38,798 bases of DNA, taken from a virus. Made by a program: the position numbers and the translations under genes. The DNA is taken from positions 1-38,798 of IMG/VR virus record IMGVR_UViG_3300042922_000556; one strand, written 5' to 3'. Position 1 is the stretch's first letter. The number at the start of each line of letters is the position of its first letter. This document shows, piece after piece, positions 7,003 through 11,754 of this stretch. The notes beneath the pieces are model-generated. The model did no database searches. It saw nothing but the letters and a program-made list of their open reading frames with translations, and was not told the DNA's origin.

Positions 7003-7314
7003 ATGGCAAGTTATCGTCAAAGAATTACGATACAGAAACAGCATAAAGAGCTATTTATAAAACGGGATCCATTTACAAAAACAAAAAAAAATTATCGCTC
7101 TGAGACAAAGATATATATCACAAAAGCCATATCAATGTATAAGACAGCAGCGGCTTCTTTCGAGCCACTTTCAGACGAAGAGAAGATATGTAGAGATGAG
7201 ATATTAAAGTATACGATTGACCTTGAGATACTTGAACGGGGTACATACGAGGAGAGCAGGGAGGTGATTAAAAAATATGGAGGAATTATCGGTAAAACAA
7301 TACACGAAGGCTGA
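7003..7314 (+). CDS. Hypothetical protein
   Basis: A 103-aa, strongly basic N-terminal half (RQRITIQKQHKELFIKRD) and helical C-terminal half. It has a GGTGAA ribosome site ahead of ATG 7003 and overlaps the DUF927 gene by 38 bases, which suggests coupling. No family recognised; a helicase accessory role is a guess from position. Confidence 0.6.
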   Translation: MASYRQRITIQKQHKELFIKRDPFTKTKKNYRSETKIYITKAISMYKTAAASFEPLSDEEKICRDEILKYTIDLEILERGTYEESREVIKKYGGIIGKTIHEG

Positions 7315-9103
7315 TTTCAACACCGAAGAACCATACCGGGTATTGTTTTCCTTAAGAAATAATCGTTTTAAATACAACCAGGTATTCACCATATTAAAAG
7401 AGAATGCTTCCAGTGTCGGATTCAAGGATTTCGGCAGAATGCTTAAATCATATGCGGAGGAGCAAGCTGGTAAAGGAGTAATCATTGATAATGTTACTCA
7501 ATTTGATGGCCAGTTGATAGAATTAAAGACCGGTGAATGGTTGGCTGATGATTTCGCGGTTACCAGAAGAAATGAGCGTAATGGCGAGGATATCGCTTGC
7601 GTTCATCCTATCATGCCGGTGGAGTGTTTAAGTAATATCGATACCGGTACAGAAAAACTTCGGATTGCATTTAAAAAAGGTAAGTTCTGGAGAAACGAAA
7701 TTTATGAAAGACGTACGATTGCAAGTGCTAATAATATCCTTGAACTAGCCAATAATGGAGTAGCTGTTACCTCAGAAAATTCAAAATACTTGGTCCGATA
7801 CCTCCACGATATAGAGAACCTCAACTACGATGTTATCCCTCAACACAACTCAGTGGGTCGACTTGGTTGGACAAACAAGGGAGAATTTAGTCCCTATGTA
7901 GAGGATTTGATTTTTGATGGAAATAATGATTTTGAAAATATATATAAATCCATCAGATCCGAAGGAAGTTTTGATGAATGGCTCAAGGTTGCAAAGGAAG
8001 TGCGAGCAAGTGGTTCACCTTCCAAGATAATGCTGGCTGCAAGCTTTGCAAGCGTACTTCTTAAAATTCTTGGAAAGTTAAATTTTATAGTCCATTTCTG
8101 GGGAGGTTCAGAGGTTGGAAAATCTGTTTCGCAGATGCTTGCCATTTCGATATGGGCGGATCCTGGTGAAGAAGCTTATTTTCAAACATTCAACGGCACA
8201 CAGGTCGGAACTGAGTTATTAGCTGGATTTGTAAATAGTATGCCACTTGTTCTAGATGAATTTCAGTTAGTCAAAGATAAAAAAACGTTTGAAACTATCG
8301 TATATATGCTCTGTGAAGGCACTGGACGTATCAGAGGAAAGAAAACGGGAGGAATTCAAAAAACGCCAACATGGAAAAACTGTATTCTTACATCTGGAGA
8401 AGGTCCCATAACGAATAGTGCTTCTGGTGGCGGAGCGGTAAACCGAATTATTGAAATTGAATGTAAGGACAAACTGTTTATAGATATTCCTGCTGTTGCG
8501 GATATCGTCAGAAAGAATTATGGGCATGCCGGAAAAATATACATTATGCTATTGCGTAATGAGGCGGCAAAAGAAGAAGCCGAGAGGCTTTACAAGGAAT
8601 TTTATCATTCCTTTGGATCTGATGCGACCGAAAAACAATCAATGGCCGCAGCTGCTATTTTAACCGCTGATGCATTAGCTACAAAGTGGATATTTTGCGA
8701 TAATCATGCACTTAAGGTGGAGGATATTGAGAAGTATTTAAGTACAAAGGAGTCAATCGATACGAATTTGAGAGCATATGAATACTTTAGGGATATGATT
8801 ACCGCAAATCATTATAAGTTCGCTGCAAAAGGGAACATGCCCGTAGGGGAATGTTGGGGCAGTATATCCGGAGGAAAAATCAATGTTCTCAAGAGCATGT
8901 TTGAAAAGATATGCAGTGATGGAGGTTATGATTCCAAGGCTTTGTCTAGCTGGATGAAACAAAATGGATTTACGGAATCAGCAGCTGATCGCGCGTTTAA
9001 AAGTGTAAGTATAAACGGAATGAAAGCATGGTGCGTCAGTCTTAAAGAAGATGAAGCTGCATTTGAGCCGGTTAATCAACATAAAGTACCGTTTAAAACA
9101 TGA
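7277..9103 (+). CDS. DUF927-family replicative helicase-like ATPase
   Basis: A 608-aa protein. The DUF927 core shows SVGRLGW near residue 191, then Walker A GGSEVGKS at about 276-283 and Walker B PLVLDEFQ at about 322-329, followed by an arginine-containing sensor region (GGGAVNRIIEIE near 380). The N-terminal 140 residues and C-terminal helical part look like accessory domains. DUF927 proteins are superfamily III-type helicases found in phages and integrative elements. No primase motif is evident in the N-terminus. The iteron array begins right after its stop, which fits an origin-specific replication helicase. Confidence 0.85.
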   Translation: MEELSVKQYTKADFNTEEPYRVLFSLRNNRFKYNQVFTILKENASSVGFKDFGRMLKSYAEEQAGKGVIIDNVTQFDGQLIELKTGEWLADDFAVTRRNERNGEDIACVHPIMPVECLSNIDTGTEKLRIAFKKGKFWRNEIYERRTIASANNILELANNGVAVTSENSKYLVRYLHDIENLNYDVIPQHNSVGRLGWTNKGEFSPYVEDLIFDGNNDFENIYKSIRSEGSFDEWLKVAKEVRASGSPSKIMLAASFASVLLKILGKLNFIVHFWGGSEVGKSVSQMLAISIWADPGEEAYFQTFNGTQVGTELLAGFVNSMPLVLDEFQLVKDKKTFETIVYMLCEGTGRIRGKKTGGIQKTPTWKNCILTSGEGPITNSASGGGAVNRIIEIECKDKLFIDIPAVADIVRKNYGHAGKIYIMLLRNEAAKEEAERLYKEFYHSFGSDATEKQSMAAAAILTADALATKWIFCDNHALKVEDIEKYLSTKESIDTNLRAYEYFRDMITANHYKFAAKGNMPVGECWGSISGGKINVLKSMFEKICSDGGYDSKALSSWMKQNGFTESAADRAFKSVSINGMKAWCVSLKEDEAAFEPVNQHKVPFKT

Positions 9104-9366
9104 GGTAACCGAAAAGTACCGTTGTATTTCAAATTACGGTTACTGATAAAAGCTAGTAAAATCAATGGGTTGAGCCTTGCGGTAACCGTTTCACCGCGGT
9201 AACCGTGAAAAATATCAATCCCATATACATTAAATTAATAGAATAATTTTCTATACGCGCGTAAAAAATAACGGTTACTACGGTTACCGTACCAGTTTTG
9301 CCTTATAAATCAAGGCTTTGACGGTTGCCAAGCCAACGGTTACCGTACGGTTACCACGGTTACTGT
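9104..9366. repeat. Iteron array around an AT-rich core, candidate replication origin
   Basis: Ten copies of ACGGTTACC or close variants. Forward: 9136, 9271, 9280, 9321, 9336, 9347, 9356. Reverse (GGTAACCGT): 9104, 9181, 9198. The 9-bp core CGGTWACCG is itself a palindrome with a central W. The three rightmost copies start 9-11 bases apart, near one helical turn. Reverse copies lie left and forward copies right of an AT-rich stretch (9207-9270) that holds the palindrome TACGCGCGTA (9254-9263). A small hairpin (GCCTT/AAGGC, 9300-9316) sits in the right arm. No gene fits here. Behind a replicative helicase this most resembles an iteron origin; an operator array for the next operon is the alternative. 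Confidence 0.7.
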
Positions 9367-9382
9367 AAGGAGGTGCTTCATC

Positions 9383-9598
9383 ATGCCGGATAATGAGCGA
9401 GTCAGGCTAATATTTAAAGATACTTATAACTTTTATCTTAAGTGGAAGGATATTTCTAATCCGGAAGATTGGGTTATCCTGATGAAGGAAATGAAAGAGA
9501 TAGATCATCGGTATGATTGCGACCTATGCCGGCAGATACTTCTGGAGCTGGTTAAGGTGATTGAGAATGAGTTTAAAAGCAGGGAGGGAGTCAAGTGA
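9383..9598 (+). CDS. Hypothetical protein
   Basis: A 71-aa helical protein with an excellent AAGGAGGTG ribosome site. It has aromatic residues YNFYLKWKDIS and one CxxC (CDLC near residue 48), and ends four bases inside the next gene (GTGA overlap). It is the first gene after the iteron array. No family recognised, although similar short proteins are common in clostridial phages. Confidence 0.65.
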   Translation: MPDNERVRLIFKDTYNFYLKWKDISNPEDWVILMKEMKEIDHRYDCDLCRQILLELVKVIENEFKSREGVK

Positions 9599-11754
9599 GC
9601 GAGGAATTACAGGAGTTAATGGATAATAATCCGGAATGGTATAAAGATATTCTCCTGGTCGATGCGAAGGAGTTCATCCGAGCAAATATCAATTCGGCAT
9701 CCAGGAGTTTTGTAGCGATAGGATATTATCTCAAGTATATCCGGGATAATCAAATGTTTACCAAAGATGGGTACCAGAATATTTGGGAATTTGCTCAATC
9801 AGAGTTTGGTATTAGTAAATCATCTGCTAGTCGCTTTATAAATATCAATGATCGGTTTAGTAAAGATGGGAACTCTCCTATTCTTCTGGAACAGTATAAG
9901 GATTTCAACAGCAGTAAATTGTCCGAGATGTTAACCATGACAGATGAACAGATTGAGCAAGTAACTATTACAACAACGGTTGCTGAGATAAGAGAAATTA
10001 AGCAGCCGATTAAGGATGAAGTTGTTGCGACGTCGCAACAGGAACCGCAAAAAGAGATAGAACCACGAATTAGAAATGCAATAATCAGAGCCTACATTGA
10101 CGGATTTACCGACTGGAAAAAGAACAGCATTCGAATGGAATTTGCTTCCTCGAAAAGATTAGAGGACCGTATTGATTATCTAAAATCTTGCGTTGCATTT
10201 GGAAATACGTATTTAACTATTGAGGGTGAAGAGAAAAAGCTGTATCTGAGAAAATCCAGCGATGAAGAGCTTGAATTATCAGACTTTAATAACAGCTTTA
10301 TAGAATTTGCCCCAGGAATAACAAAATTTACTTTCACTTACGGTGAGATGGCTGGCATTGCCGATGGAATGCTGTATGGGTTAAAAACCGAACCGGAATC
10401 AGAAGAAGTAAAACTAATTGACGATCTCGATTTTACCGTCAGAACCTACAACTGTTTGAAGCGTGCCGGAGTCGATACGGTTGACAATCTATGTGAGCTA
10501 ACCGAAATCGAAGTAGAAATGATCCGTAACATTTCTCGGAAATGCGTCGATGAAATCAAGCTGAAATTATCCGAGATTGGTATGAAGCTGAAGACAGATA
10601 TCCCTGAAATTGTGAACGATATCGCTGGAATTGTGGATAATGAGCCTGAAATCGAGAATGATGTGGATGAAACCGAGGCTATGATAGAAGATGGATACTA
10701 TGACAAGTTGGCAGCATACTGGTGTCGAAGGGAAATGACGGTTGAGCTTTATGAATTGGCCAAGAGCCAAGAAGATGAAGACATTGATGTATTCAATCGA
10801 TATTTCAAAGAAAGATATGTCCATGAGTGCATAGCACCATCTTATAATCTTTCGAGATATGAAATTTCATTCGTGACCGATATGGATGGAATAAGTTTTA
10901 ACGATGCTGAAAAAACGAGATATTCATGGCAGCTACTAATTGATTTGGTATGCCAAGAAGCCGAGAATGAAACACCTGCATCAAAACCTACCAATCTTCA
11001 TGAAAATGATGAAGGACTTAAGAGACTTAGAGAAATCAGAAGAGAATTGAAAAGCGGAAAAAGGGTAACGAAATCTGTTGAAACCATACCGGAATACATA
11101 GGAACCGTTAGTGAAGTGGCTGAAAGTGTTATTGAAGAGCCAGAAACTATTACTGAACAGTTTGAAACTGTAGAAGCCGATATCATACAGATGGTACCGG
11201 AGACAGACGAGGATGAAGACGAGCCTGAGATAGTAGATCCGGAGTATTATACATACCAAGATGTTGATACCGAAATTGATAAGTTAATGGAATATCTTGA
11301 AGCGTTTCGCAAGAATAATGATACAGTGCCAGGAAGAAGAAAGGCGAAGATGCGCTTTGATGCAATCTGCCTTCTCAGCAAGGAAATGCAAAAACCTCCG
11401 GTAATCGAAGAGCCTGAACCAATACAACCGGAGTTGCCAATCCTGAAGAATAATGACCAGCGTAAAGATTGGGCTGATAATTATAGAGCCTGGAATGAAT
11501 GGTATTACGATGATCATATCGATTGTCATTATTACAAATATGACTTTCCTAACGGTGACAGACTTGTAGTTGATGAGTATAGGGATAGGGAACTTTATTG
11601 GAAGGCTGGGAAACATGATGAACAGCATTATCATCTGTTAAGAAAAGAAAAGTTAGCTTACGGAGATAGACGTACATACGAGGAAAGATACTCACATCAG
11701 ACTTCAAGCATGACAGAAATAGTTGATTATCTGAAAGATCTTCAGAAGAAATGA
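9595..11754 (+). CDS. Large phage protein with an RNA polymerase alpha-CTD-like domain
   Basis: 719 aa from GTG 9595. The N-terminus (residues about 25-120, with SRSFVAIGYYLKYIRD and FGISKSSASRFI) looks like an HTH/ParB-associated DNA-binding domain. Residues about 272-338 closely follow the bacterial RNA polymerase alpha C-terminal domain: DDLDFTVRTYNCLKRAGVDT, then the helix-hairpin-helix region RNISRKCVDEIKLKLSEIG. After that come acidic linkers (PETDEDEDEPEIVDPE) and a C-terminal domain rich in Trp and Tyr (residues about 620-719). Alpha-CTD binds UP-element DNA and activators, so the protein may redirect host polymerase or use the fold for DNA binding. It is placed directly after the origin-like array. 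Confidence 0.75.
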   Translation: MSEELQELMDNNPEWYKDILLVDAKEFIRANINSASRSFVAIGYYLKYIRDNQMFTKDGYQNIWEFAQSEFGISKSSASRFININDRFSKDGNSPILLEQYKDFNSSKLSEMLTMTDEQIEQVTITTTVAEIREIKQPIKDEVVATSQQEPQKEIEPRIRNAIIRAYIDGFTDWKKNSIRMEFASSKRLEDRIDYLKSCVAFGNTYLTIEGEEKKLYLRKSSDEELELSDFNNSFIEFAPGITKFTFTYGEMAGIADGMLYGLKTEPESEEVKLIDDLDFTVRTYNCLKRAGVDTVDNLCELTEIEVEMIRNISRKCVDEIKLKLSEIGMKLKTDIPEIVNDIAGIVDNEPEIENDVDETEAMIEDGYYDKLAAYWCRREMTVELYELAKSQEDEDIDVFNRYFKERYVHECIAPSYNLSRYEISFVTDMDGISFNDAEKTRYSWQLLIDLVCQEAENETPASKPTNLHENDEGLKRLREIRRELKSGKRVTKSVETIPEYIGTVSEVAESVIEEPETITEQFETVEADIIQMVPETDEDEDEPEIVDPEYYTYQDVDTEIDKLMEYLEAFRKNNDTVPGRRKAKMRFDAICLLSKEMQKPPVIEEPEPIQPELPILKNNDQRKDWADNYRAWNEWYYDDHIDCHYYKYDFPNGDRLVVDEYRDRELYWKAGKHDEQHYHLLRKEKLAYGDRRTYEERYSHQTSSMTEIVDYLKDLQKK

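Follow-up and report, generated by a model that had tools for sequence, protein, structure and literature searches.

The window, by which we mean the whole 38,798-nucleotide stretch analysed here, encodes a terminase, a portal, a major head protein, a tail tape measure, a major tail protein and an endolysin. These genes mark it as a tailed phage and not a satellite, PICIs obtaining their virion proteins from a helper phage. At positions 7277-9103 on the plus strand lies the gene of a 608-residue putative initiator helicase, in which Pfam searches recover a DUF927 AAA+ core (residues 102-363; e-value 4e-42) and a C-terminal Cch winged-helix domain (HTH_56; residues 495-580; e-value 2e-15). Directly 3' of it, as an earlier sequence-only reading had noted, is an array of short repeats whose first copy begins one base past the helicase stop codon, and directly downstream of the array starts an operon (9383-11754), leaving a gap of 279 bp (9104-9382). 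In SaPIs a primase gene precedes rep or is fused with it, whereas no primase gene was recognized beside the helicase here using Pfam and PHROG. The gene just upstream (7003-7314; 103 residues) has no match in either collection; at the corresponding place a primase is annotated in two relatives, L009 and L010.

The only confident sequence relatives of the helicase in the PDB are SaPIbov1 Rep (8tch; profile match with E = 1.9e-55) and the SCCmec helicase Cch (5dgk). An AlphaFold2 model built from an alignment of 65 homologues (pLDDT 88.3) likewise matches SaPIbov1 Rep best (VIA Z 33.5, rmsd 5.4 over 455 residues), followed by Cch (Z 30.9), with MCM helicases next at Z ~13. The upstream gene thus codes for an MCM-like helicase that is homologous to SaPIbov1 Rep over most of its length. 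The SaPIbov1 ori with its DUF927 Rep was reportedly described by Ubeda et al. in 2007 and 2012, and the SCCmec Cch helicase (5dgk) is said to come from the work of Mir-Sanchis et al. in 2016. We also considered the Rep_3/RepA class of iteron plasmid origins and rejected it, the adjacent gene coding for a DUF927 helicase without a Rep_3 match in Pfam. For the C-terminal domain alone, sequence searches recovered no relative in the PDB; structure comparison, on which the link rests, superposes it (residues 491-597) on TcpK (5vfy; Z 11.3 over 93 residues). In the model its wing hairpin comprises strands 575-579 and 582-590, and a helix spans residues 553-562.

The array had been described as ten copies of a palindromic 9-mer, seven forward and three reverse. 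All ten were found again in the window on the strands and at the positions claimed, the forward copies starting at 9136, 9271, 9280, 9321, 9336, 9347 and 9356 and the reverse ones at 9104, 9181 and 9198, although the 9-mer is only nearly palindromic (GGTTACC / GGTAACC) and no true palindrome. The left set, which is irregular, comprises on the minus strand TCGGTTACC at 9104-9112, directly 3' of the helicase stop, a degenerate copy AAAGTACCGTT at 9113-9123, and two inner iterons ACGGTTACC at 9181-9189 and 9198-9206; the degenerate copy forms a direct repeat with an iteron-like AAAGTACCGTT on the same strand inside the C-terminal codons of the helicase (9083-9093). In opposite orientation to this set stands a single plus-strand copy ACGGTTACT (9136-9144), with an inverted single at the matching place in relatives. 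The right set, on the plus strand, consists of an inner pair (ACGGTTACT at 9271-9279 and ACGGTTACC at 9280-9288) and an outer triple (9336-9344, 9347-9355 and 9356-9364), between which lies a single copy ACGGTTGCC (9321-9329) to which we assign no strand. As letters the latter is a seventh forward copy; since the closest relatives, L016 and L096, carry the reverse copy GCGGTAACC in the same slot, it is probably a decayed inverted one. Exact copies of ACGGTTAC number eight in the window, every one within 9136-9363, against 0.45 expected window-wide, a count matched by none of 100 shuffles of the window. In 100 simulated windows any 8-mer occurred at most four times within 263 bp, versus eight here, and the rest of the 38,798 nucleotides contains no second array of comparable kind.

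Between the two sets lies the AT-rich core that had been claimed, at 9207-9270 (no strand; ~79% A+T, with 20-24% GC in 50-bp windows), which is a candidate melting region (DUE). On its right edge is a plus-strand TCTATACGCGCGTA box (9250-9263). Of 96 relatives, 21 have the motif CGCGCGT within their AT block (0.6 expected), mostly at the same place as the TCTATACGCGCGTA of the window; the edge words that recur among relatives are CTATATA at the left end of the block and CGCGCGTA at the right end. The spacer at 9307-9328 (no strand) holds AAATCAAGGCTTTGACGGTTGC, which is 73% like 9159-9180 and has related words in the spacers of relatives: a second recurrent element, resembling AAATCAAGGCTTTGA (AACCCGCAT in other relatives), stands between groups of iterons to the left as well as to the right of the AT block. 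The gap 9104-9382 contains no ORF of at least 60 codons, which bears out the earlier statement that no gene explains these 279 bases, and no promoter-like or terminator-like site. Neither does it match an Rfam family, and on this ground we rejected a structured RNA. No switch in GC skew was seen at the array, which is uninformative because nearly all of the phage genes run one way and mask such a signal.

The sequence-only reading had suggested looking for the same repeat in related prophages. We drew relatives from IMG/VR, GTDB genomes and phage records, and scored an array wherever the 430 bp that surround and follow the helicase stop codon contained at least five identical 7-mers. Such an array is present in 83% of the 154 non-identical homologues whose downstream sequence was long enough, the commonest 7-mer in control windows of the same loci averaging 2.5 copies; the remaining ~17% show no clear array by this simple 7-mer criterion. 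Chance or low-complexity repeats without function, for which only the shortness of the word speaks, are refuted by this conserved placement in more than 100 relatives, together with the eight exact copies and the simulations given above, and we hold their probability to be negligible. Among the carriers are phages 36-50 kb in length and a staphylococcal island. The named phages Anaerostipes AC844P2, Ruminococcus phiRg507T2_3, Roseburia Jekyll, Thermoanaerobacterium THSA-485A and Faecalibacterium FP_Epona have the array 3' of the homologous helicase gene, and the stretches of these five records that we examined have no origin annotation. What is shared is the array rather than the word: ACGGTTACC occurs in the window, L016 and L096, whereas other loci carry TTGGGAACC, TTGGGTACC, TGTCCCACA, GGTGTTACA, AAACGTACA, GGTGAAACA and further words besides, and each of the five named phages has its own. 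When the iterons are placed in a common frame, positions 7-8 are mostly AC and positions 3-6 are variable.

To describe the layout we used 107 well-resolved loci, which were filtered beforehand (eight names by hand), the motif finder having misplaced the core or picked AT words at some loci (e.g. L007, L053 and L153). In the right set a same-strand pair at 0/+8-9, which was itself a selection criterion, is accompanied by features that were not selected for, namely an inverted single mainly at +51 to +54 and outer copies at +63-65, +73-76 and +83-85. On the left the arrangement is approximately the mirror image of this, and the gap between the two sets has a median length of 81 bp and a mean A+T content of 73%. 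Copies on the two strands number 459/96 on the left and 524/135 on the right, counts that overstate the asymmetry because the orientation of each array was chosen to maximise opposition. Similarly, the array of the staphylococcal element PT1028 has copies of its word TCGGGAACT at 0+, 9+, 54-, 76+ and 87+. Thus, the spacing of the iterons recurs across relatives with different words and in a staphylococcal island.

Three proteins had been put forward as possible binders of the repeats, namely the DUF927 helicase, an alpha-CTD protein and the HTH proteins. The second of these is a 719-residue product (9595-11754) of the downstream operon, in which an RNA polymerase alpha-CTD domain (residues 270-327) is set within an otherwise phage-type protein. 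Were the repeats operators, through which the alpha-CTD protein, the HTH protein or a 71-residue protein encoded just downstream of them controls this operon, their position directly in front of it would be explained, and cooperative operators, too, typically comprise several spaced sites. However, of the 107 arrays only 9, 8 and 2 come with genes for the 71-residue, alpha-CTD and HTH proteins, respectively, the region has no promoter-like site, operators need no AT block between opposed sets, and the sequence of the iterons tracks the wing of the helicase. We therefore rejected operators as the main explanation and regard this possibility as improbable; of the proposed binders the helicase is favoured by the covariation of its wing, and the other two are disfavoured.

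The evidence for the helicase comes from comparing its sequence with that of the iterons across these loci. A global Mantel test of iteron distance against C-terminal-domain distance gave a weak correlation of 0.235 (partial correlation 0.14 after accounting for the AAA+ core, a value reached by none of 499 permutations); because iteron distance saturates, we relied instead on residue-level and nearest-neighbour tests. After correction for overall helicase distance, the residues most strongly coupled to iteron positions cluster at 566-585, the HTH domain contributing 43 of the top 100 couplings, a share of 4.6% of its tests versus 1.0-1.9% elsewhere. The scan also lists position 9 as coupled with residues of the core, which is probably phylogenetic. 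When the iteron is predicted from the nearest neighbour among helicases whose bodies are at least 45% different, residues 571-590 yield 75% correct letters, as against 64% for the body, 57% for the median 20-residue window and 54% for random pairs; windows in the wing rank first and second among all 20-residue windows at four distance cut-offs. In the model this best covarying region is the wing hairpin and not the helix 553-562. Hence the iteron sequence co-varies with the wing of the helicase at about residues 566-590, and the corresponding codons (8972-9046, plus strand) probably specify the iteron-reading element, as suggested by covariation, the nearest-neighbour tests, pairs of near-identical phages and the secondary structure of the model.

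These pairs show wing and iterons changing together. The helicase bodies of L078 and L083 are 99% identical; wing residues 572, 576, 583 and 587 are different in the two, and the iterons read AGTTCCGCA in the one and AGTCCCACA in the other. In L035 and L036 the wing differences are at 585, 587 and 589, with iterons TCACACA versus TCGCACA. The bodies of L127 and L128 are identical, but their wings differ at 11 residues and their iterons are not the same. At the DNA level L078 and L083 are 99-100% identical until ~180 bp before the stop, 75-93% over wing and origin, and 98-100% again just past +300, with a similar profile in L035/L036, whereas L127/L128 diverge from the wing on and never rejoin. 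Across these pairs body identity stays at 94-100% while the wing and origin DNA fall together; the dip is absent from pairs that share their iteron and whose bodies are just as similar. The simplest inference is that wing and origin have apparently passed as a single cassette between phages that are otherwise near-identical. A stretch of about 400 bp contains both the wing codons and the iterons, so that their specificity would be exchangeable in a single recombination event.

Within one clade the correspondence can be written out residue by residue: N at residue 572 goes with C at iteron position 4, A or K with T, and H or R with G, while at residue 576 G or A goes with A at iteron position 7, C or S with G, and N with C. 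We fixed prediction rules before new loci were fetched and then obtained 29 new C-terminal sequences, seven of which belong to the clade of the rules. In these seven helicases 21 of 22 predictions were correct: three of three at position 4, five of five at position 7, seven of seven at positions 5-6 (CC, counted as one item) and six of seven at position 3. The lone miss, L237, has D and not G at residue 570, and how this locus scores hinges on aligning its word by the conserved AC. Three pairings for which no prediction had been made extend the code: R572 goes with G at position 4 (L226 and L233), and C stands at position 7 with N576 (L227) and at position 4 with G572 (L223). A clear array is absent from six of the 29 new loci; in four of them the sequence is gapped at key wing residues, and the reading frames of those four may therefore be incomplete. 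Nearest-neighbour prediction fails once about 10 or more of the 21 wing positions differ. The iteron word is thus partly predictable from the sequence of the helicase. Binding of the iterons by the helicase through its C-terminal wing is a prediction: covariation speaks strongly for its specificity, and cassette exchange and the blind test support it as well.

A structural precedent for such recognition exists in TcpK of plasmid pCW3, which binds tandem 9-mers GGAACTTTA (in the context CAGGGAACTTTA) with its beta-wing in the major groove, its canonical helix making only one backbone contact (PMC6137059). The superposition of the helicase domain on this winged helix, together with its wing-read 9-mers, therefore offers an independent reason to expect wing reading here, and the GGGAAC of the TcpK boxes is the core of several iterons in our set. 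TcpK itself has no helicase and serves at oriT as an accessory protein of the relaxosome.

The arrangement as a whole corresponds to that of known satellite origins. SaPI Rep uses its C-terminal domain to recognise an iteron origin that follows its own gene directly (PMC7581432), and PICI origins consist of two iteron sets around an AT-rich region, a layout for which an E. coli PICI has been assayed as a replicon (PMC6092414). The locus shares with them its position directly 3' of rep, the two sets around an AT block and a homologous initiator, and departs from them in its word, ACGGTTACC, in having no recognised primase gene beside rep and in being carried by a tailed phage. The DUF927 helicase Cch, itself related to SaPIbov1 Rep (PMC7581432), shares the fold and the Cch HTH domain of our protein. 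Cch2 resembles it in that its C-terminal domain binds direct repeats downstream of its gene, a putative origin where none had been identified in SCC elements before, but it is a D5-type helicase and the repeats are three 5-nt iterons (PMC7581432). The initiator homology, the SaPI-origin layout, its conservation in more than 100 relatives and the wing-iteron coupling make it very likely that the 279-bp gap is the replication origin of the phage, of SaPI/PICI type, in agreement with the probable iteron origin next to a DUF927 helicase that had been proposed from the letters; membership of the array in this known type, here in a tailed phage, appears well supported by these comparisons.

Covariation identifies the reader of the repeats and not the site at which replication starts. 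It would also be compatible with a helicase that binds the repeats mainly for self-regulation, partition or incompatibility while replication starts elsewhere, the coupling showing binding specificity and not replication itself. Plasmid iterons also act in copy control, which lends some credit to such a role. However, the array lies downstream of the helicase gene and not in front of it, its two sets with an AT block are the published layout of SaPI/PICI origins (PMC6092414), and the window has no other such array; accordingly, we give this alternative little weight. At an origin of the SaPI/PICI type, by analogy with the SaPI literature from which melting, loading and initiation are taken, helicase subunits would bind the 9-mers via the wing in the major groove, assemble as a hexamer on either side of the AT block, melt this block and load themselves without DnaA or a separate loader, whereupon synthesis would start with host or phage replication proteins.

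Beyond the window, we consider it reasonably probable that origins of this type, instead of being a hallmark of satellites, are common in a large group of clostridial temperate phages, and that their specificity resides in a swappable, fast-diversifying cassette of ~400 bp, combining helicase wing and iterons and obeying a partly readable residue-to-base code. Perhaps this diversification serves escape from incompatibility, superinfection or hijacking. The locus offers a concrete origin candidate for phages of anaerobic gut-type bacteria, in whose records, as far as examined, the replication start is unmarked. The layout was held in 2018 to be exclusive to PICIs (PMC6092414), and the conflict of our results with this view bears on the source of the replication module of the satellites. 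More than 100 natural initiator-origin pairs, with a specificity partly readable from a few wing residues, also provide a testable recognition code for which TcpK could be the structural template; within a limited literature search this code, the cassette exchange and the breadth in phages appear to be new.

Two minor observations concern the proteins of the window. A 132-residue protein (1775-2173) matches a PHROG antitoxin family. Of 153 homologous helicases, 54 have at their C-terminus an acidic stretch plus [ILVM]PF, resembling the C-terminal tip of SSB (HKVPFKT in the window, 9080-9103), and this could perhaps be a docking tail for host replication proteins.
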